49,012 nt of DNA from Alphaproteobacteria bacterium (GTDB lineage Bacteria; Pseudomonadota; Alphaproteobacteria; UBA6615). The stretch is taken from assembly GCA_022449545.1 (NCBI GenBank), contig JAKUPN010000015.1:1-49012 (forward strand), in the 5' to 3' direction. The notes beneath the pieces are model-generated. The model worked only from the letters and a program-made list of their open reading frames with translations. It did no database searches and was not told the DNA's origin. Shown piece by piece: positions 74-34,484 of this stretch (its first letter is position 1; each line of letters opens with the position of its first letter). A program made the translations under genes and the position numbers.

Positions 74-1516
74 AATCGGGGTAATCCCCTGAGAGACCTC
101 AACCAACTGGATGAAGCACTAGAAAGTTATGACCGTGCTATTGCTCTCAAACCGGATATGGATTTTATATTTGGTGCTTCATTACATAACAGAATGAACC
201 TTTGTATCTGGGAAAATCTATCAAATAACCTTAATAAATTAATAGATAAAGTTAAAAATGGAGAAAAGGTTTCTAGACCCTTTCCGATGTTGTCTCTGAT
301 TGACGACCCTAGTATTCAAAGAAAAACTACGGAAATTTTCGTTAACGAGAAACACCCACAGACTAATATTTCTCCTAAAATATACCAATATCAAGAACAT
401 AAAAAAATTCGGATTGGGTACTTCTCTGCTGACTTTCATAATCATGCAACGATGCATTTAATGGCAGAGTTGTTTGAATGTCATGATAGAGATAAATTTG
501 AACTCATTGCGTTCTCGTTTGGGCCCGATAGTCAGGACAAATGGAGACAAAGAATTCTTTTATGTTTTGATAAATTTATTGAGGTTAGAACCCAGTCAGA
601 GCAAGATATAGCATTGTTATCCCGAAACATTGGCATTGATATTGCTGTTGATTTAAAAGGATTTACCGGGGATAATCTTTTCAATATATTTACAGAGGGT
701 AGTGCACCGGTACAGGTTAACTATCTTGGATACCCAGGTACAACAGCGGCAGAATATATGGATTATATTATTGCCGATCAGACACTAATTCCTGAAACAC
801 ATCAGAGATACTACTCAGAGAAAGTTGTCTACCTACCCAACAGTTATCAAGTCAATGTATCTAAAAAGAAAATCTCTAAGACACCATTAACACGACATGA
901 TGTAGGGTTACCAAATTCGGGTTTTGTATTCTCATGCTTTAATAACAACTATAAAATTACACCACACACATTTTTCTGTTGGATGAGGATAATTGAAGCA
1001 GTTGAGGATAGCGTACTTTGGTTATTTGAAAGTAATAGAAGTGCTGCAAGCAATCTAAAAAAAGAAGCATCAAAGTTAGGCATTAATGAAGATAGATTGT
1101 TCTTTGCTAAATATGTTTCTGTTGAAGAGCATTTAAACAGAATACAGTTAGCCGATCTTTTCCTTGATACTCTACCTTATAATGCTCACACAACGACCAG
1201 TGATGCACTTAAAATGGGATTACCCGTGATAACTTGTATGGGAAACTCTTTTGCCAGCAGAGTTGGTGCAAGTCTGCTGAATGCTGTTAATTTACCGGAA
1301 TTGATTACGACGACCCAAGAGCAATACGAGTCACTTGCTATCCAACTAGCATTACAACCAGAAAAGTTAAAAATCATCAAAGACAAGTTAATCAATAATG
1401 TACCCACAGCGCCGCTATATGACACCCCATTGTTTACACGACATCTCGAGTCTGCCTATTTGACTATGTATGACAGATACCAACATGGATTAGATCCAGA
1501 TCATATTTATGTGTAA
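74..1516 (+). CDS. TPR-containing O-linked GlcNAc transferase-like protein, 5'-truncated (GT41 family)
   Basis: The open frame runs back from the ATG at 158 to base 74, where it meets the adapter. The extra codons encode a typical tetratricopeptide repeat (QLDEALESYDRAIALKPD), so the true start is missing. The rest (about 450 residues) is the GT41/SPINDLY-type catalytic region. It shows the SADFHNHATMHL motif with the proposed catalytic-face His, FNNNYKITP with the UDP-binding Lys, and the HTTTSDALKMGLPVIT signature near the C-terminus. GT41 enzymes transfer a sugar from a UDP donor (classically GlcNAc) to Ser/Thr of cytoplasmic proteins. Bacterial homologues often modify flagellin or surface proteins, but the acceptor cannot be told here. 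The nearby glmU-glmS pair makes UDP-GlcNAc, although it lies on the other strand. Family call firm; substrate unknown. Confidence 0.88.
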   Translation, partial: NRGNPLRDLNQLDEALESYDRAIALKPDMDFIFGASLHNRMNLCIWENLSNNLNKLIDKVKNGEKVSRPFPMLSLIDDPSIQRKTTEIFVNEKHPQTNISPKIYQYQEHKKIRIGYFSADFHNHATMHLMAELFECHDRDKFELIAFSFGPDSQDKWRQRILLCFDKFIEVRTQSEQDIALLSRNIGIDIAVDLKGFTGDNLFNIFTEGSAPVQVNYLGYPGTTAAEYMDYIIADQTLIPETHQRYYSEKVVYLPNSYQVNVSKKKISKTPLTRHDVGLPNSGFVFSCFNNNYKITPHTFFCWMRIIEAVEDSVLWLFESNRSAASNLKKEASKLGINEDRLFFAKYVSVEEHLNRIQLADLFLDTLPYNAHTTTSDALKMGLPVITCMGNSFASRVGASLLNAVNLPELITTTQEQYESLAIQLALQPEKLKIIKDKLINNVPTAPLYDTPLFTRHLESAYLTMYDRYQHGLDPDHIYV

Positions 1517-1572
1517 AAACGTATTGGGTATAGGTGTTGGTGCTATATACAGACTAATCAACACACAAAAGT

Positions 1573-1863
1573 TTATACTTTTATAATAGACCAATCCCCA
1601 TATGTTAATTCATACGGTTTGTTAATTATTTCTTCTCTTAATCTTCTTTTCTTTAATATTGAATGTACATGAGCACTCTTAAACTTATGCCCTCTTGGTG
1701 TTTTATACCCATGCTCATTTAACCAATGTCCAATCCTTTTATAACCTAAACCATCGTTTTGAAGTTCAGTTATTTTCTCAAACAGAAAATCTTGGTATTC
1801 AGATAAGGGTGGAATGTTAAGATAACCACAACGTATGGTGACATTGACACACACATAGGACAC
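1573..1863 (-). CDS. small recombinase-like winged-helix protein
   Basis: This 96-residue ORF has a central segment (ITELQNDGLGYKRIGHWLNE, then GYKTPRGHKF and HVHSILKKRR). It resembles the DNA-binding 'Recombinase' domain found after the catalytic domain of large serine recombinases: a 'long repeat, short helix, new TPRG' pattern ending in a basic KKRR helix. No resolvase catalytic domain is present, and the first 20 residues do not resemble one. It may be a degenerate remnant of an integrase or a free-standing DNA-binding protein. It sits alone between the truncated glycosyltransferase and glmS, consistent with an accessory island at the contig end. The start codon is uncertain. Family assignment is from pattern memory only. 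Confidence 0.5.
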   Translation of the reverse strand: MSYVCVNVTIRCGYLNIPPLSEYQDFLFEKITELQNDGLGYKRIGHWLNEHGYKTPRGHKFKSAHVHSILKKRRLREEIINKPYELTYGDWSIIKV

Positions 1864-1889
1864 TATTTTACGAACACGTCCTTTCGGAC

Positions 1890-3713
1890 TTACTCCACGG
1901 TCACGCTTTTAGCCAAATTACGTGGTTGATCTACATCTGTACCCCTTATTACAGCAGTATGATAGGCTAATAGTTGTATTGGTATGGAATATAAAAGAGG
2001 GGCAACAAAGTCATCAATCTTGGGCATGGTGATGCTCGCCCAGCTTTTTTTCTCTAATCTCTTAACACCTTCATGATCAGAAATAAAAACTACCTTACCT
2101 CCCCGAGCTATAACTTCTTGAACATTTGAAAGTGTCTTTTCAAAAAGTTCTCCTGGTGGAGCTAACGCTATAACCGGAACGCCATCGTCGATTAGTGCAA
2201 TCGGTCCATGTTTCATTTCTCCAGCCGCGTATCCTTCTGCATGAATATAAGAGATTTCTTTCAACTTTAATGCACCTTCAAGGGCAATTGGATAAGCTGT
2301 TCCACGACCTAGATAAAGCACATCTCGTGATTTAGAAATATTGATAGCCAACTCCCTAATATCTTGGTCATGGTTTAAAACCTCTGCCATCCTTGAAGGC
2401 ACTTCAGTAAGTGATTTGGCTAGCGAAGCAGCCTTAACGTGTTCAAGGGTGCCATTCGCTTTGCCTACGGCTATAACGAAACATGCTAAAGACGTTAATT
2501 GTGTAGTGAATGCTTTTGTCGATGCAACTCCGATCTCAGGACCTGCTAGAGTAGGCAACACAACATCCGATTCACGTGCAATTGAGCTTTCGCCAACATT
2601 TACAACAGAGACTATGTGCTGATCATTTTCACGACAATGACGCAAAGCAGCAAGGGTGTCGGCTGTTTCACCAGATTGGCTAACAAAAAGAGCTATACCA
2701 CCTTTGGGCAGAGGTGCATCACGATAACGAAACTCAGAAGCAACATCTATCTCAGCTGGTATTCTTGCTATCCTTTCCAACCAATACTTTGCAACCCATC
2801 CAGCATAACAAGCCGTACCGCAAGCAACTAAATTTACTCTTGATACTTCTGACAAATCGAAAGGAAGGGACGGAAGAGTAATTTCTAATGTGTGAGCGTT
2901 TAAATAGCTCTGAAGAGTGTCACCAACAACCGCTGGTTGCTCGAAAATTTCTTTTTGCATGAAATGCTCAAAATTTCCCTTCCCTATAGTAGCACCTGAT
3001 AAAGCCGTTTCCATTTCATCACGTTGAACAGGAGTACCGTTCTTGTCATATATATCAGCTCTCTCTGAAGTGACTATGGTCCAATCACCTTCTTCCAAAT
3101 AACAAATGCGTTTAGTAAGAGGCGCAAGTGCATGAGCGTCTGATCCTAAATACATTTCACCGTCTCCGTAGCCTAAAGCCAAAGGACTACCGCGTCTTGC
3201 ACCTACTATAAGATTATGTTCACCAGCAAAAATAACCGCTAAAGCAAAAGCACCCTCAAGCCGGTCCAAGGACGTCTTTACCGCTACGTTTATTGAAGCC
3301 CCATTCTCTAACTCTCGAGTTATCAAGGCAGAAATGGCCTCAGTGTCAGTATCACTTTCAAAAATGTATCCTGAAGAATTTAATTCATCACGTAATTGTT
3401 GAAAGTTTTCAATTATTCCGTTGTGAACAACAGCAACTTTATGTGTAGCATGAGGATGTGCATTTCTTTCATTAGGTGCCCCATGAGTGGCCCAGCGAGT
3501 ATGTCCAATACCAACCTCACCAATTAAGGGGTTGTCTTTAAGTTCATTCTGTAAATTGACTAACTTGCCCTCTGCGCGTCGTCTTTCTATCCGACCGTTA
3601 ACCAAAGTCGCTATACCGGCAGAATCATAACCACGATATTCGAGCCGTCGTAACCCAAGAAGTAAACGTGGAGCAACATCTCCTTTACTTAGAATGCCTA
3701 TAATACCGCACAT
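1890..3713 (-). CDS. glmS: glutamine-fructose-6-phosphate aminotransferase (isomerizing)
   Basis: GlmS makes glucosamine-6-phosphate from fructose-6-phosphate and glutamine, the first committed step to UDP-GlcNAc for peptidoglycan and LPS. The 607-residue protein is full length for the family. It begins MCGIIGIL, leaving the N-terminal nucleophile Cys after Met removal. The glutaminase (Ntn) domain covers about residues 2-230 (GHTRWATHG, HNGIIEN). Two SIS sugar-isomerase domains follow (SQSGETADT near 350; LGRGTAYPIALEGALKLKEISY near 480). The C-terminus ends LAKSVTVE, the conserved tail that closes the active site. It lies 21 bases downstream of glmU on the same strand, so the two pathway enzymes are probably co-transcribed. 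No glmS ribozyme-like leader is expected or seen. Confidence 0.98.
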   Translation of the reverse strand: MCGIIGILSKGDVAPRLLLGLRRLEYRGYDSAGIATLVNGRIERRRAEGKLVNLQNELKDNPLIGEVGIGHTRWATHGAPNERNAHPHATHKVAVVHNGIIENFQQLRDELNSSGYIFESDTDTEAISALITRELENGASINVAVKTSLDRLEGAFALAVIFAGEHNLIVGARRGSPLALGYGDGEMYLGSDAHALAPLTKRICYLEEGDWTIVTSERADIYDKNGTPVQRDEMETALSGATIGKGNFEHFMQKEIFEQPAVVGDTLQSYLNAHTLEITLPSLPFDLSEVSRVNLVACGTACYAGWVAKYWLERIARIPAEIDVASEFRYRDAPLPKGGIALFVSQSGETADTLAALRHCRENDQHIVSVVNVGESSIARESDVVLPTLAGPEIGVASTKAFTTQLTSLACFVIAVGKANGTLEHVKAASLAKSLTEVPSRMAEVLNHDQDIRELAINISKSRDVLYLGRGTAYPIALEGALKLKEISYIHAEGYAAGEMKHGPIALIDDGVPVIALAPPGELFEKTLSNVQEVIARGGKVVFISDHEGVKRLEKKSWASITMPKIDDFVAPLLYSIPIQLLAYHTAVIRGTDVDQPRNLAKSVTVE

Positions 3714-6026: not shown

Positions 6027-6191
6027 TTGTAAATTTTTCCTTAAATACTGATCGTTTCGAAAAAAAATAGATAATGTTTGCTTAGTTAAAACAAAAATGA
6101 AAGTTGATATTAGAAATTAATTGAAATTAACCACTCTTTTTAAAAATGTTTCGAATAATATTCATTAAAATGTAAAAAAAATAGCTAAGGA

Positions 6192-6219
6192 TTGACGAAA
6201 AAATTCAATAGAGTAAGAT
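6192..6219 (+). promoter_or_regulatory. putative sigma-70 promoter for nrdAB
   Basis: TTGACG at 6192-6197 matches the -35 consensus at 5 of 6 positions. TAAGAT at 6214-6219 follows after a 16-base spacer as a weaker -10 (4 of 6). A LexA box abuts the -10 and would cover the start site. The leader to the nrdA ATG would be about 145 bases and includes the two NrdR boxes. Confidence 0.55.
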
Positions 6220-6234
6220 GTTCACGTATTGTTC
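6220..6234 (+). promoter_or_regulatory. LexA (SOS) box, alphaproteobacterial type
   Basis: GTTC (6220-6223), seven bases, GTTC (6231-6234) is a perfect match to the direct-repeat GTTC-N7-GTTC operator known for alphaproteobacterial LexA. It lies immediately after the predicted -10 hexamer, the normal position for a repressor. It is between the divergent SRAP and nrdA genes, both plausible SOS targets. The two TGTTCACG copies (6219-6226 and 6230-6237) are one helical turn apart. Confidence 0.75.
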
Positions 6235-6246
6235 ACGGTGACAGGT

Positions 6247-6262
6247 GGTCAATATTTAGTGT
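6247..6262 (+). promoter_or_regulatory. NrdR box 1
   Basis: This 16-mer matches the published NrdR consensus (acaCwAtATaTwGtgt) at 12 of 16 positions by my count. All the strongly conserved core bases (C, A/T, A, A, T, T, A/T, G) are present, and the right half GTGT is perfect. NrdR is the ATP/dATP-sensing repressor of ribonucleotide reductase genes. This is the upstream member of a pair whose starts are 31 bases apart. Confidence 0.68.
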
Positions 6263-28611: not shown

Positions 28612-28659
28612 TTATTAATAATTGTAGCCATAGCTTCATATTGTAGCATTATTAATAAT
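28612..28659. promoter_or_regulatory. repeat-containing region upstream of the MCO-ZIP-mntR operon, candidate operator
   Basis: Two near-identical palindromes, TTATTAATAAT at 28612-28622 and ATTATTAATAAT at 28648-28659, flank two ATTGTAGC direct repeats (28621-28628 and 28640-28647). The arrangement lies 77 bases before the multicopper oxidase ATG. Such symmetric AT-rich elements are a plausible site for the MntR encoded in the same operon. It does not match the E. coli MntR box clearly, so the assignment is tentative. Confidence 0.35.
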
Positions 28660-28735
28660 ATTGACCCACGGCAGACTTATAGCTTTAATAACAAAAAAAC
28701 GTGCTATTTATTATGAATTTGAAGAGTTTTTTAAA

Positions 28736-29827
28736 ATGATTACGAAGTTACTTCGTGGCGCACCCAATCGACGAGCCCTGTTAGGAGCAAGTGCTTGGTT
28801 GCCGTTTATACCGTTAATTTTTTCCTCTGATGCAAAATCACAGGACCCCAAAGATAAAACCCCACATTCACACTCACGTGCTGATTCACATTCTACTGGC
28901 ATGACTACTGTTGGCAAAGTAGATCATAATAGAAACGGGTTTGATCCAATGGAACTCTTAACCAGATGGGAAACTGGAAAAGTCTCTATAGATACTAATG
29001 GAAAGCGTGTCCGTACTTTTGAGATTAATGCTTTAGATATTGAAATAGAGATTGCACCAGGAATTTTTTTTCCAGCCTGGACATATAATGGCCAAGTGCC
29101 TGGCCCGACATTAAGGGCAACTGAGGGTGATTTTCTTCGTATTCACTTCACCAATCAGGGTAGTCATCCACACTCATTGCACTTTCATGGAATACATAAC
29201 GCTAATATGGACGGTATCGCAGGAGCAGGGCTAGTTTCACCGGGAGAAGAATTTACCTATGAATTCTTCGCTCAACCTTATGGCTGTCATCTATATCATT
29301 GTCATGCCGTACCTCTTAAAAGACATATTCATAAGGGTCTATATGGAGCATTTATTGTTGACCCCGACCCAAAATTACATGTGAACCACCAAAAGATGGC
29401 ACTCTCTCGTCAACTGGGGACAGAACAGAACAAAGGCTGGCAAGAGCTACTTATGGTGATGAACGGATTTGATACTAATTTCGATGATGAAAATGAAATT
29501 TATGCCGTTAATACTGTGGCACACGAATTCATGAAACGACCCATCAAGATCAATAAAGATATTCCATTACGGATCTACCTCATAAACGTTACAGAATTTG
29601 ATCCTATTAATTCTTTTCACATTCATGGAAATTTCTTTGATTACTACGATCACGGAACCACCCTTCTTCCAACTAGTAAAAATATAGATACGGTTATGCA
29701 GTGCCAAGCACAACGAGGCATTATCGAAATGTCTTTTGAACATCACGAACCAGGTCATTATATGTTTCATGCTCACCAAAGTGAATTTGCTGAGCTGGGC
29801 TGGATGAGTACTTTTGAGGTGTCATGA
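28736..29827 (+). CDS. Tat-exported two-domain multicopper oxidase
   Basis: I start at ATG 28736, which begins a Tat-type signal (MITKLLRGAPNRRALLGAS, twin Arg at 12-13, hydrophobic stretch, cut near residue 35). A TTG at 28661 is in frame but would bury the signal. A His-rich linker (about 43-53) follows. Cupredoxin domain 1 has HFHG (149-151) and YHCHAVPLKRHIHKGLYG (Cys189, type-1 copper). Domain 2 has FHIHG (295-297) and MFHAH (345-347). The usual C-terminal HCH is HAH here, so the type-1 site is only in domain 1, as in NirK-type and some two-domain oxidases. The 363-residue protein probably oxidises a metal ion or phenol in the periplasm. It overlaps the ZIP gene by 4 bases, with mntR next. 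Confidence 0.9.
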   Translation: MITKLLRGAPNRRALLGASAWLPFIPLIFSSDAKSQDPKDKTPHSHSRADSHSTGMTTVGKVDHNRNGFDPMELLTRWETGKVSIDTNGKRVRTFEINALDIEIEIAPGIFFPAWTYNGQVPGPTLRATEGDFLRIHFTNQGSHPHSLHFHGIHNANMDGIAGAGLVSPGEEFTYEFFAQPYGCHLYHCHAVPLKRHIHKGLYGAFIVDPDPKLHVNHQKMALSRQLGTEQNKGWQELLMVMNGFDTNFDDENEIYAVNTVAHEFMKRPIKINKDIPLRIYLINVTEFDPINSFHIHGNFFDYYDHGTTLLPTSKNIDTVMQCQAQRGIIEMSFEHHEPGHYMFHAHQSEFAELGWMSTFEVS

Positions 29828-30981
29828 TGGGCTTAATACGCACCTCTTTTGCTTTGCCGATATTATTAATAATTGCTGTCATATTAGTTTTATTCACGAT
29901 TGATCCACTATCCAATTTTGGTCAAGGAATACCGCCAGAAGAAGCTCTTGTTATTGAAAGGGTTACCGCAGGAGATAAGGGCTTAACATCTATTGTAAGA
30001 GGAAACAGTCGTGATCCGGTAACTATAGCTCAGGTTCAAATTGATGGTGCTTATTGGAAATTTAAACAGATACCGCCTGAGCCACTCAAGCTTCTCTCTC
30101 AAGCAAAAATTGTTATCCCGTATCCTTGGGTGTCAGGAGAATCTCACCATATGAGATTTGTCTCTAGTAATGGCACTACTTTTGACTACGCATTAGAAGT
30201 AGCACGTAAAACTCCCAACGCTAACATCGATACATTATTTAATCTCTTAATAATCGGATTATTTGTAGGCTTAGTGCCAGTTTCAATAGGTATGATGACC
30301 CTGCCTATTCTACGCAATGTGGGCAATAAAGGCATAATTTTTGCTATGACTCTTACAATAGGGTTGCTTACATTTCTTCTAGTGGACACACTTTCCGAAG
30401 GGCTCCAACTTGCTCAGGAATCAGCCAGCTCGTTTAGGGGTGAAATAATAGTTTGGATGATAGCAGCTTTGACGTTTTTTGGAACAATGGCAATAAGTCG
30501 TAAGTCAGGACTAGCTATAGGTGGTGCTACACTATCGACATGGTTGGCACTAGGCATGGGCTTGCATAATTTTGGGGAGGGTCTTTCAGTAGGGTTTGCC
30601 TTATCGATGGGAAATGCCGCTCTCGGAAGCACATTAATCATTGGCTTTATGATCCATAATTTAACCGAAGGGGTGGCAATTGTTGCGCCAGTTGCACGTA
30701 ATAAAATATCTCTTATGTCGCTTTGTGCATTGGCTTTAATAGCGGGGCTCCCAGCAGTAGCTGGGACTTTCACTGGTGCATTTATCCTTTTACCACACTG
30801 GGGAGCATTATTTTTTGGCATCGCAGCAGGGGCAATAGCCCAAGTAATTGTTGAGGTTGGCCGCTCCGTCTTGATCATACAAAACAAAAGGGAAGACAAC
30901 ACCTATGCTGGACCAGCCTTTGCGGGCTTTGGTATCGGTGTTGTGGTTATGTATCTAACCGGATTCCTAGTTCAGGTTTAA
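29824..30981 (+). CDS. ZIP-family metal transporter with N-terminal extracytoplasmic domain
   Basis: A 385-residue inner-membrane protein. An N-terminal helix (about 7-27) is followed by an about 100-residue soluble beta-rich segment (about 35-130) that I do not recognise, probably extracytoplasmic. A ZIP core of about eight helices fills 135-385. The ZIP metal path is intact: HNFGEG (His248, Glu252) and HNLTEG (His278, Glu282) are the paired HNxxEG motifs of the GufA/ZIP branch. ZIP proteins move Zn, Mn, Fe or other divalent metals inward. The gene overlaps the multicopper oxidase stop (ATGATGG), and mntR begins 4 bases past its end. Mn is therefore the likeliest cargo, by context. Confidence 0.88.
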   Translation: MMGLIRTSFALPILLIIAVILVLFTIDPLSNFGQGIPPEEALVIERVTAGDKGLTSIVRGNSRDPVTIAQVQIDGAYWKFKQIPPEPLKLLSQAKIVIPYPWVSGESHHMRFVSSNGTTFDYALEVARKTPNANIDTLFNLLIIGLFVGLVPVSIGMMTLPILRNVGNKGIIFAMTLTIGLLTFLLVDTLSEGLQLAQESASSFRGEIIVWMIAALTFFGTMAISRKSGLAIGGATLSTWLALGMGLHNFGEGLSVGFALSMGNAALGSTLIIGFMIHNLTEGVAIVAPVARNKISLMSLCALALIAGLPAVAGTFTGAFILLPHWGALFFGIAAGAIAQVIVEVGRSVLIIQNKREDNTYAGPAFAGFGIGVVVMYLTGFLVQV

Positions 30982-30984
30982 TTT

Positions 30985-31443
30985 ATGAAAAATAAACATA
31001 AAAAAAGCTCTACCACTCAAAAAATGATGGATCCCAATCGCCAAGCTGCTCAGTTTGAACGTGTGCGAACAGCCCAACAAACTGAAAAAGCAGAAGACTA
31101 CGTTGAGATGATAGATGACTTGATTAAAGTGTATGGAGAAGCACGTGTGGTTGAGTTAGCTAGACGTTTTGGGGTCTCCCATGCGACAGTATATAAAGTG
31201 ATAAAGCGACTCCAACGTGACGGTTTAGTCCACACCCGTCCCTATCGTTCTATTTTTCTTACCCCTGAAGGCCATAAACTTGCCGACGCTTCACGTGCAC
31301 GACATCAAATTGTTTTGAACTTTCTTAGAGCAATTGGTATTAGCAAACAAACGGCGGAACAAGATGCAGAAGGCATAGAACATTACGCCAGTGATGAAAC
31401 ACTTACGGCATTCTCCCAATTTGTTGTTCAATCAAAAAAATAG
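30985..31443 (+). CDS. mntR: manganese-responsive transcriptional regulator MntR (DtxR family)
   Basis: A 152-residue DtxR-family repressor of the proteobacterial MntR type. An N-terminal basic tail leads into the family-specific ERVRTAQQTEKAEDYVEMIDDLI (about 27-49). The winged helix VVELARRFGVSHATVYKVIKRLQRDGLV follows (about 58-85), then the metal-sensing and dimerisation part with RARHQIVLNFL and DAEGIEHYASDETL. Metal ligands in MntR are an N-terminal Asp/Glu and the Glu/His residues in this last region, and candidates are present. Mn-bound MntR usually represses importers. Its position as last gene of the MCO-ZIP operon suggests autoregulation. Confidence 0.92.
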   Translation: MKNKHKKSSTTQKMMDPNRQAAQFERVRTAQQTEKAEDYVEMIDDLIKVYGEARVVELARRFGVSHATVYKVIKRLQRDGLVHTRPYRSIFLTPEGHKLADASRARHQIVLNFLRAIGISKQTAEQDAEGIEHYASDETLTAFSQFVVQSKK

Positions 31444-32650: not shown

Positions 32651-33559
32651 ATGTCTCGACCTGTAATTATAAGTTGCGCCGTAACAGGTGGCGCGGATAC
32701 TAAAGAAATGAATCCTGCAGTGCCTGTAACCCCAGAAGAAATTGCCGAAGAGGTATTGTCTGCCCACTCTGCAGGGGCCGCTGTAGCCCACATCCATGTG
32801 CGTAATCCCAGTACGGGTAAAGCAAGTATGAAAACCTCTTATTATAGTGAAGTAGTTAAACGAGTTCGAGATGCGAAATGCGACGTTGTTATAAACCTTA
32901 CAACTGGACCAGGCGCTAGGTTTGCGGTTGATACAATGTCACCTCTGGAACCCGGACCAGGCAGTGTTATGAAAACTGCAGAAGAAAGAGTCGCTCACGT
33001 AATTGAAAACAAGCCAGATATTTGTTCACTTGATGTAGCTACTATGAACTTTGGTGATAGACCCATGGTCAACTCTCCAGACATGCTTGCTGAAATGGCT
33101 CAACTCATCCAATCCGCCGGAGTAAAGCCTGAATTAGAAGTCTTTGATGTAGGACATGTTAGTCTGGCAAACCACCTTGTAAAAACGGGCATTATCTCTG
33201 ATTCAAAACCACTTTATCAGTTATGTTTGGGTATTCCCTGGGGAGCGCCGGCTTCCCCAGAATCAATGACATTGATGCGAAATATGTTACCAAAGGATGC
33301 AATATGGGCTTCATTTGGAATATCACGGTATGAGTTTCCTATGGTTGCCACTGCCACTGTGCTTGGTGGGCATGTCCGGGTAGGACTCGAAGATAATCTT
33401 TATATAAGTAGAGGAAAGTTAGCTTCAGGCAATGCTCAATTGGTTGAAAGAGCAGTCAAAATCATCAACGCGATAGGTGAAAATGTAGCAACCCCTTCAC
33501 AAGCTAGAGAAATATTTGGATTAAACGAGGGAAATGACACACGTAAGGCTGCGGAGTAG
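32651..33559 (+). CDS. beta-keto acid cleavage enzyme (BKACE/DUF849 family), copy 1
   Basis: BKACE enzymes split a beta-keto acid with acetyl-CoA to give acetoacetate and a new CoA ester; the founder is the lysine-fermentation Kce. The 302-residue protein has the zinc ligands His47 and His49 in AHIHVR, and the conserved Glu in VRVGLEDNLY (about 232-241). NLTTGPG and LCLGIPWG are further family landmarks. CAAAGGGGAGA precedes the ATG. A paralogue follows 43 bases later. Substrates vary widely in the family (carnitine-, amino- or aliphatic-derived keto acids), so the exact reaction is open. The neighbourhood, with a semialdehyde dehydrogenase, suits amino acid or amine catabolism. Confidence 0.92.
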   Translation: MSRPVIISCAVTGGADTKEMNPAVPVTPEEIAEEVLSAHSAGAAVAHIHVRNPSTGKASMKTSYYSEVVKRVRDAKCDVVINLTTGPGARFAVDTMSPLEPGPGSVMKTAEERVAHVIENKPDICSLDVATMNFGDRPMVNSPDMLAEMAQLIQSAGVKPELEVFDVGHVSLANHLVKTGIISDSKPLYQLCLGIPWGAPASPESMTLMRNMLPKDAIWASFGISRYEFPMVATATVLGGHVRVGLEDNLYISRGKLASGNAQLVERAVKIINAIGENVATPSQAREIFGLNEGNDTRKAAE

Positions 33560-33602: not shown

Positions 33603-34484
33603 ATGGCACGTGCAGTGATTATTTCTTGCGCTATAACAGGGGGATCTGATACCAAACACATGAACCCTGCAGTTCCTGTTACTCCTGAAGAAATAGCTAA
33701 TGAAGCAATTCAAGCGCATGCTGCTGGTGCGGCAATAGCTCATATACACGTACGAGATCCGCAAACTGCTAAAGCCAGTATGGATCCAGCCTTATACAAA
33801 GAAGTAGTAGATAGAATAAGGGATAGTGGATGTCCAATTTTGCTTAATTTGACGACAGGTCCTGGAGGGATCTTAGTTGTTGAAAACGACGCTCCACATA
33901 ATTTTCGTGATGGAAGCCATCTCAGCAGTGCTGAAGAAAGAATTCAGCATGTAATAGAAAATCGACCCGAAATGTGCACACTTGATGTGACCACAATGAA
34001 TTACTCAGATTTAGCAGTTACTAATACCAAAGCTATGCTTGACCGCATGGCAATGCTTATAGAGCCTCTAGGAGTAAAAATTGAGATGGAGGTTTTTGAC
34101 ACTGGTCAGTTGTGGCAAGCAGCGGACATGTGTGAAAGGGGTGTAATCAAAGACAATTTACCTCTATTTCAACTCTGCCTCGGAATTCCATGGGGAGGAC
34201 GAGCAACAATTGAATCTATGCAATTAATGCGCGATCAACTGCCACATAATGCTATATGGGCTTCATTCGGAATATCACGTTTCGAATTCCCTATGGTCGC
34301 CTCAGCAGTAGTTCTAGGAGGACATGTTCGCGTAGGAATGGAAGATAATTTATATTTATCTCGTGGAAAATTAACTCCTGGAAATAGACCATTGGTTGAG
34401 CGAGCAGTGCAAATAATTGAATCGATTGGTGACTATCCTGCTAACGTAGATGAAGCTCGTAATATACTAGGAATAAAAAACTAA
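33603..34484 (+). CDS. beta-keto acid cleavage enzyme (BKACE/DUF849 family), copy 2
   Basis: A 293-residue tandem paralogue of the preceding gene. It shares AHIHVRDPQT (zinc His pair), NLTTGPGG, LCLGIPWGGRA, the ASFGISRFEFPMVAS block and VGMEDNLY. The genes are clearly related at the DNA level too (for example around 33301-33330 versus 34254-34283). The substrate-facing segments differ, however: residues about 98-110 read NDAPHNFRDGSH here against SPLEPGPGSV in copy 1. The pair may form a heteromer or handle two related keto acids. AAGGAGGG lies 7 bases before the ATG. It ends convergently with the aldehyde dehydrogenase. Confidence 0.92.
   Translation: MARAVIISCAITGGSDTKHMNPAVPVTPEEIANEAIQAHAAGAAIAHIHVRDPQTAKASMDPALYKEVVDRIRDSGCPILLNLTTGPGGILVVENDAPHNFRDGSHLSSAEERIQHVIENRPEMCTLDVTTMNYSDLAVTNTKAMLDRMAMLIEPLGVKIEMEVFDTGQLWQAADMCERGVIKDNLPLFQLCLGIPWGGRATIESMQLMRDQLPHNAIWASFGISRFEFPMVASAVVLGGHVRVGMEDNLYLSRGKLTPGNRPLVERAVQIIESIGDYPANVDEARNILGIKN

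Follow-up and report, generated by a model that had tools for sequence, protein, structure and literature searches.

Locus and gene content

Three genes on the forward strand make up the stretch from 28612 to 31443 of a contig from a marine alphaproteobacterium, of which the whole analysed length of 49,012 nucleotides is here called the window. They encode a two-domain multicopper oxidase (MCO), a transporter of the ZIP fold and the Mn-type regulator MntR (Table 1), and we discuss them below as a candidate operon for the uptake of manganese. The reading frames of MCO and ZIP share 4 bp (ATGA, 29824-29827), and mntR begins three bases past the ZIP stop. The ATG at 28736 is likely the start of the MCO; the TTG at 28661, with which the list of open reading frames begins this gene, is probably not its start, because it is part of the conserved promoter-like hexamer TTGACC. 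A preliminary description, made from the letters of the window, had already named three overlapping or nearly touching genes for a Tat-exported two-domain MCO, a ZIP transporter with an intact metal path and MntR, and these identifications are borne out by the comparisons that follow.

Table 1. Features of the MCO-ZIP-mntR locus; positions are those of the window, except for the last row, which gives residues of the MCO
Feature	Position	Strand	Basis
MntR-type operator TGTAGCCATAGCTTCA	28623..28638	+	one mismatch to TGTAGCNNNNGCTACA; clade alignment; core counts
Promoter-like TTGACC-N17-TTTAAT	28661..28689	+	9/10 aligned clade sequences
Two-domain multicopper oxidase (MCO) with Tat-type signal	28736..29827	+	Cu-oxidase_3 and Cu-oxidase_2 matches, structure comparison, 90-row alignment
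ZIP-fold transporter; N-terminal helix and beta-sandwich (~residues 38-127) ahead of the membrane core	29824..30981	+	fold match
mntR, Mn-type DtxR-family regulator	30985..31443	+	curated model, ligand residues
Putative copper ligands of the MCO	T1: H146, C189, H197; trinuclear-centre His pairs: 149/151, 188/190, 295/297, 345/347		motif

The MCO scores above the cut-offs of both Cu-oxidase_3 and Cu-oxidase_2, and under those of the NCBIfam equivalog models for CopA (86.4 of 478.95 bits), CueO (43.8 of 525 bits) and copper nitrite reductase (97.9 of 296.3 bits). In an alignment of 90 rows (the window, 80 genome loci and nine plasmids) the three type 1 (T1) ligands and all eight trinuclear-centre histidines, which we assign by motif, are conserved without exception. 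Position 346, inside the last histidine pair, is Ala in 78 rows and Pro in 12, never Cys; position 202, by motif comparison the presumptive axial place of the T1 site, is Leu in 56 rows and Met in 34. With T1 His-Cys-His in domain 1 only and a full trinuclear set, the protein fits type C, the two-domain MCOs that have the T1 copper in domain 1 only. The twin Arg of the signal, present in 88 of the 90 rows, points to export by the Tat pathway. Two-domain MCOs form trimers in which the trinuclear centre lies between subunits. The structural model, of a monomer, has a mean predicted local distance difference test (pLDDT) score of 70.4, which is too weak for placing acidic residues near the T1 copper. 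Among its best structural matches are 7rab from M. hydrothermalis, a dodecamer with 71% identity to the window's MCO, and 3gdc from Arthrobacter FB24, with about 50% identity.

The sequence of the ZIP protein (385 residues) falls below the Pfam gathering score (PF02535, E 3.8e-5, 23.5 of 35.1 bits), and a PDB sequence search gave no match at E <= 1. Because the sequence score is under the cut-off, membership of the family rests on fold and binuclear-site motifs. The model (mean pLDDT 88.9) retrieved seven Foldseek matches at E <= 0.001, every one a ZIP entry, and attains Z up to 19.4 against ZIP structures. The residues of its two HNxxE motifs (H248, N249, E252 and H278, N279, E282) are conserved in 90/90 rows, and it is for these six that the metal path can be called intact; together with the predicted fold they mark the protein as a ZIP transporter. 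The closest folds to its N-terminal part, in the full-length model, are those of the archaellum proteins FlaF/FlaG (Z up to 12.1), with weak matches to CopC; despite these matches we read the domain only as a putative beta-sandwich.

The third protein exceeds the cut-off of the curated MntR model NF008273 (E 2.6e-61, 205.9 of 153 bits), and its best PDB match, 2h09, is annotated as MntR. It keeps six residues (D38, E41, H107, E129, E132 and H133) aligned with the metal ligands of Bacillus subtilis MntR. Curated score and ligand residues both identify it as a proteobacterial MntR.

The MntR-type operator

The preliminary description had proposed that MntR binds within 28612-28659, and a conserved MntR-type box is indeed found there. 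An alignment of ten sequences from the window's clade shows a dyad near TGTAGC-N4-GCTACA, with the box present in 10/10. The motif of the window is weak on its own, because five places with at most two mismatches occur in the window against 1.2 expected by chance, and it is the alignment that carries the case. Where MntR adjoins the MCO (31 upstream regions, from 29 loci and two plasmids), an 8-base core matches exactly in 24 and with one mismatch in the other seven, as against exact matches in 9/58 MCO upstream regions without adjacent MntR and in 6/1720 control windows from the same loci. In relaxed form the core also precedes sitA-like genes in 14/22 MntR-linked loci of ATP-binding cassette (ABC) transporters, compared with 44/1500 windows of those loci, targets left in. 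By its upstream operator the window's MCO would belong to the predicted MntR regulon. A scan of the window's genome returned two places with zero mismatches and many with one; the five places other than the window's box that were examined each lie within a coding frame.

The position of the box varies. In three loci of the Roseobacter group (L066, L092, L094) and in L036 it lies directly 3' of a good -35/-10 pair, a position as for a repressor. In the window's clade a promoter-like motif (TTGACC or TTGATC, 17 bp, then TTTAAT, TTAAAT or TTAACT; 9/10 sequences) lies 22 bp 3' of the box, which is thereby centred near -65. The promoter scan did not report the window's copy of this motif upstream of the MCO, as it fails the rules of the scan.

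Genes adjoining mntR and other metal transporters

Among 24 genomes of the same family, 11 possess this MCO at high score, and ZIP and MntR adjoin it in all 11. According to the preliminary description, a triad found only in the window would have spoken against its manganese reading; the triad is clearly not so restricted. Fifteen family genomes were also searched for MntR, and two of them (G004 and G007) have MntR without MCO-ZIP. In both, mntR adjoins the operon of a metal ABC importer and is accompanied by the same kind of operator. The operon of G007 is of Mn type by its best models, EfaA and a manganese/iron ATPase (382.8 of 393 bits), below cut-off, and the ATPase of G004 is best matched, also below cut-off, by the MntA model. 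In a sample of the class, MntR occurs in 60/385 genomes; within flanks of about 4 kb, shorter at contig ends, its neighbour is MCO-ZIP in five, an ABC transporter of Sit-like type in 22 and a transporter of the ArsP_2 family in nine, while 24 have none of the three. A weak test, made with a single query on 56 loci, gave no Nramp above 100 bits next to MntR.

The ArsP_2 (PF11449) membrane proteins of these nine loci (L198, L202, L212, L228, L229, L230, L231, L233 and L237) are named arsenic efflux proteins or heavy-metal exporters in the libraries. Their link with MntR suggests a manganese transporter and a misleading family name; we presume that the protein is MntX.

The window's genome (assembly about 96% complete) yielded no Nramp, no ArsP_2-like protein and no second ZIP, and the exporter MntP (PF02659) was found in 0/24 genomes, the window's included. 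Its single PF01297 protein has a His-rich stretch and reaches 266.9 of 268 bits with ZnuA, and the genes beside it have ZnuC, ZnuB and Zur as best models, all somewhat under cut-off; the genome's one ABC metal-binding protein thus appears to be of the zinc (ZnuA) kind, in a znu-zur-like cluster. MCO-ZIP is therefore the only candidate manganese importer among the families tested, which cover part of the known families of Mn uptake.

Distribution of the MCO-ZIP pair

A scan of named genomes with the MCO alignment gave 440 relatives, of which the best 80 were followed. The ZIP gene lies 3' of the MCO gene on the same strand in 80/80 of these loci, which to judge by their titles come from Alpha- and Gammaproteobacteria, Cyanobacteria, Deinococcota and Balneolota, among others. 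A plasmid search with ZIP gave 147 records; MCO precedes ZIP in all nine that were opened, picked for spread and including one from the haloarchaeon Halomontanus. A start within the 4-bp overlap is possible in 74 of the 89 pairs. Such constancy bears on the idea that the two are companions only, with ZIP alone importing the metal and a laccase-like or copper-handling MCO co-expressed for another purpose. Two-domain MCOs are often called laccases, and an interaction of MCO and ZIP is a proposal; the unbroken adjacency and the frequent overlap start speak against this idea, which we hold to be improbable.

Linkage to MntR is less constant. Taking as linked an MntR of at least 40% identity within 3 kb (by tblastn, some flanks being under 3 kb), we count it in 29/80 loci, eight downstream on the same strand and 21 divergent; a cluster of 46 MntR loci from the clustering survey was set aside because that survey suffered from false reverse-strand frames. 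In a quick MCO tree a branch with support 99 sets apart the window's set, in which MntR is downstream. Seven changes are required on this tree for all three linkage states, at least five being forced for the unlinked state, and the linkage has therefore changed repeatedly.

Of 398 genomes of the phylum searched with a ZIP profile, five had a match, the window's own among them, with an MCO at four of the five loci. The fifth (L105, 1370-2034) has no MCO gene, and what is present of MntR, a C-terminal part, borders directly on the C-terminal half of ZIP, which looks like the remnant of an internal deletion in a divergent mntR-MCO-ZIP locus. Viral contigs held no ZIP relative. Other loci show further arrangements. 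In Cytobacillus (L110) a tatA/E gene lies directly 3' of the pair (6075-6251), which fits Tat export of the MCO, and a neighbouring P-type ATPase gene (1182-3317) has one early in-frame TGA next to a Cys codon, possibly the mark of a selenoprotein or else a sequence error. On the Arthrobacter FB24 plasmid (L107, 7563-11118) genes for another multicopper oxidase and for a VIT1/CCC1 transporter come after the pair. Two of the 80 loci (L024 and L025) lie on two contigs of one metagenome-assembled genome and have identical MCO rows, either by duplication or by assembly redundancy.

The triad of the window is preceded by a gene for a Gfo/Idh/MocA oxidoreductase and followed, on the opposite strand, by one of zinc-binding-dehydrogenase type; none of the six flanking genes is for metal efflux. 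Further along, two neighbouring reading frames (32651-33559 and 33603-34484) resemble each other and are presumably tandem DUF849/BKACE-type enzymes.

A proposed manganese uptake operon

The identities of the three genes, the complete copper and ZIP motifs, the conserved pairing, the MntR-type box and the absence of the tested importer families, all read directly from sequence, are the ground on which we interpret the locus. We favour, with moderate confidence, an MntR-controlled operon for the acquisition of Mn(II), with ZIP as the permease and the MCO as its oxidising partner. Mn(II) would cross the inner membrane through ZIP. Tat would export the folded MCO, which would work with ZIP on the periplasmic side, and the extra beta-sandwich of ZIP would perhaps hold the MCO near the permease. 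MntR would bind the box 5' of the MCO gene and set expression by cytoplasmic Mn. In the window's lineage MCO-ZIP would then fill the role played elsewhere by Sit-type ABC importers or MntH. The Mn cargo and the direction of import are inferred from regulation and substitution, and repression by Mn is likewise an expectation.

The role of the MCO is the most speculative step. Our preferred view is that the oxidase would act on Fe(II), and on Cu(I), close to the permease and would thereby let a promiscuous ZIP pass Mn(II) and not Fe(II); the main alternative is oxidation of Mn(II) itself. Removal of Fe(II)/Cu(I) is favoured because a ZIP presumably transports divalent ions and would not profit from an oxidised cargo. 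In Pseudomonas putida GB-1, Mn oxidation goes with higher intracellular Mn (PMC3798386), and the two can therefore be coupled.

Several observations weigh against this reading. The binding protein of G004 is best matched by the zinc model AztC, below cut-off, and that genome is only 61% complete. Nramp scores over its cut-off in 14/48 genomes with the pair (taken from 50 of the 80 loci, with L066 left out and two loci in one genome). In 51/80 loci MntR is not linked, the best queried regulator being MerR in ten, ArsR in one, a DtxR-type protein in one and none in 39, and several pairs have heavy-metal genes and regulators of the MerR, ArsR or DtxR type in their vicinity. Finally, a box near -65, as in the window's clade, is equally compatible with activation and with repression. 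The manganese reading of the preliminary description thus stands in part: the conserved triad, the MntR box and the two sister genomes with mntR beside an ABC operon support it, and it is diluted by the occurrence of MCO-ZIP well beyond the loci linked to MntR. A general replacement of MntH by MCO-ZIP was considered and is not claimed (Nramp in 4/21 MntR-linked genomes vs 10/27 others, P 0.21).

A rival reading is a module for metal tolerance, in which the MCO would detoxify Cu(I), Fe(II) or Mn(II) in the periplasm and ZIP would move the metal, switched on by metal excess through MntR or, elsewhere, through MerR, ArsR or DtxR-type regulators. Pairs on plasmids lie near P-type ATPases and MerR or ArsR regulators, a MerR-type regulator occurs within 3 kb in 10/80 loci, and the box near -65 would be in keeping with such a switch. 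Moreover, the triad-bearing plasmid pSinB is credited with resistance to iron, copper and others (PMC6115938). An import-direction ZIP, however, does not fit metal excess. The exchange of mntR's partner for a metal ABC importer in G004 and G007, the repressor-like position of the box in the three Roseobacter-group loci and L036, and the lack of an efflux gene beside the window's copy likewise argue against tolerance, which we consider unlikely without dismissing it.

Iron acquisition is a further reading, in which the MCO would be a ferroxidase, ZIP would take the iron and MntR would act as a broader Fe/Mn sensor. The oxidase-permease pair is reminiscent of Fet3-Ftr1, and the FB24 plasmid has, besides the VIT1/CCC1 gene near the pair, a DtxR-type regulator. 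Yet the regulator of the window has an Mn-type ligand set, its box is common to Mn-type ABC loci, and prior formation of Fe(III) would be no help to a ZIP expected to carry divalent ions; we give this explanation little credence.

A wider version of the favoured reading is possible, although we lean against it at present: MCO-ZIP may be a redox-gated importer found across prokaryotes, functionally equivalent to Fet3-Ftr1 but based on a ZIP, a single oxidase-permease unit docked through the ZIP beta-sandwich, in which the oxidase would gate metal entry by oxidising either competitors or the cargo. It would move between phyla and on plasmids under the metal sensor of its host, and under MntR would have become the Mn importer of the window's lineage.

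Comparison with known systems

If manganese uptake is indeed its function, MCO-ZIP would join MntH, SitABCD and MntX as a further class of manganese importer in bacteria, with a copper oxidase in the unit, and the reason for the tie between copper oxidases and manganese in some bacteria could be tested. Like MCO-ZIP, and within the same family and class, the SitABCD-type ABC importer adjoins an mntR orthologue and an operator of this kind; unlike MCO-ZIP, it is an ABC transporter with a binding protein and no oxidase. The fungal Fet3-Ftr1 system is a ferroxidase-permease pair for iron. There too, as in the window's locus, a metal permease goes with a multicopper oxidase located outside the membrane, but that permease is Ftr1 and not of the ZIP fold, and MntR has no part in it.

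The window's ZIP resembles BbZIP of Bordetella bronchiseptica, solved as a zinc/cadmium transporter, in its modelled membrane fold and its two HNxxE-type motifs, and differs in sequence (13-16% identity in the aligned part) and in the added beta-sandwich outside the match. On the side of the oxidase, 3gdc is identical over 288 residues to the MCO of the FB24 plasmid, whose gene precedes a ZIP gene; a genomic context is thus given to this solved structure and its relative 7rab, on the function of which no paper was found in the literature searched.

A precedent is plasmid pSinB of Sinorhizobium M14, whose MCO-ZIP module is reportedly named mco-gufA. The pair has probably been noted there before (Romaniuk 2017), and no paper describing the MCO-ZIP-MntR unit was found in the literature searched by title or abstract start. 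As in the window, mntR, MCO and ZIP are all present on pSinB; unlike in the window, mntR is divergent there, and the plasmid carries permeases and copper oxidases and is presented as giving heavy-metal resistance (PMC6115938).

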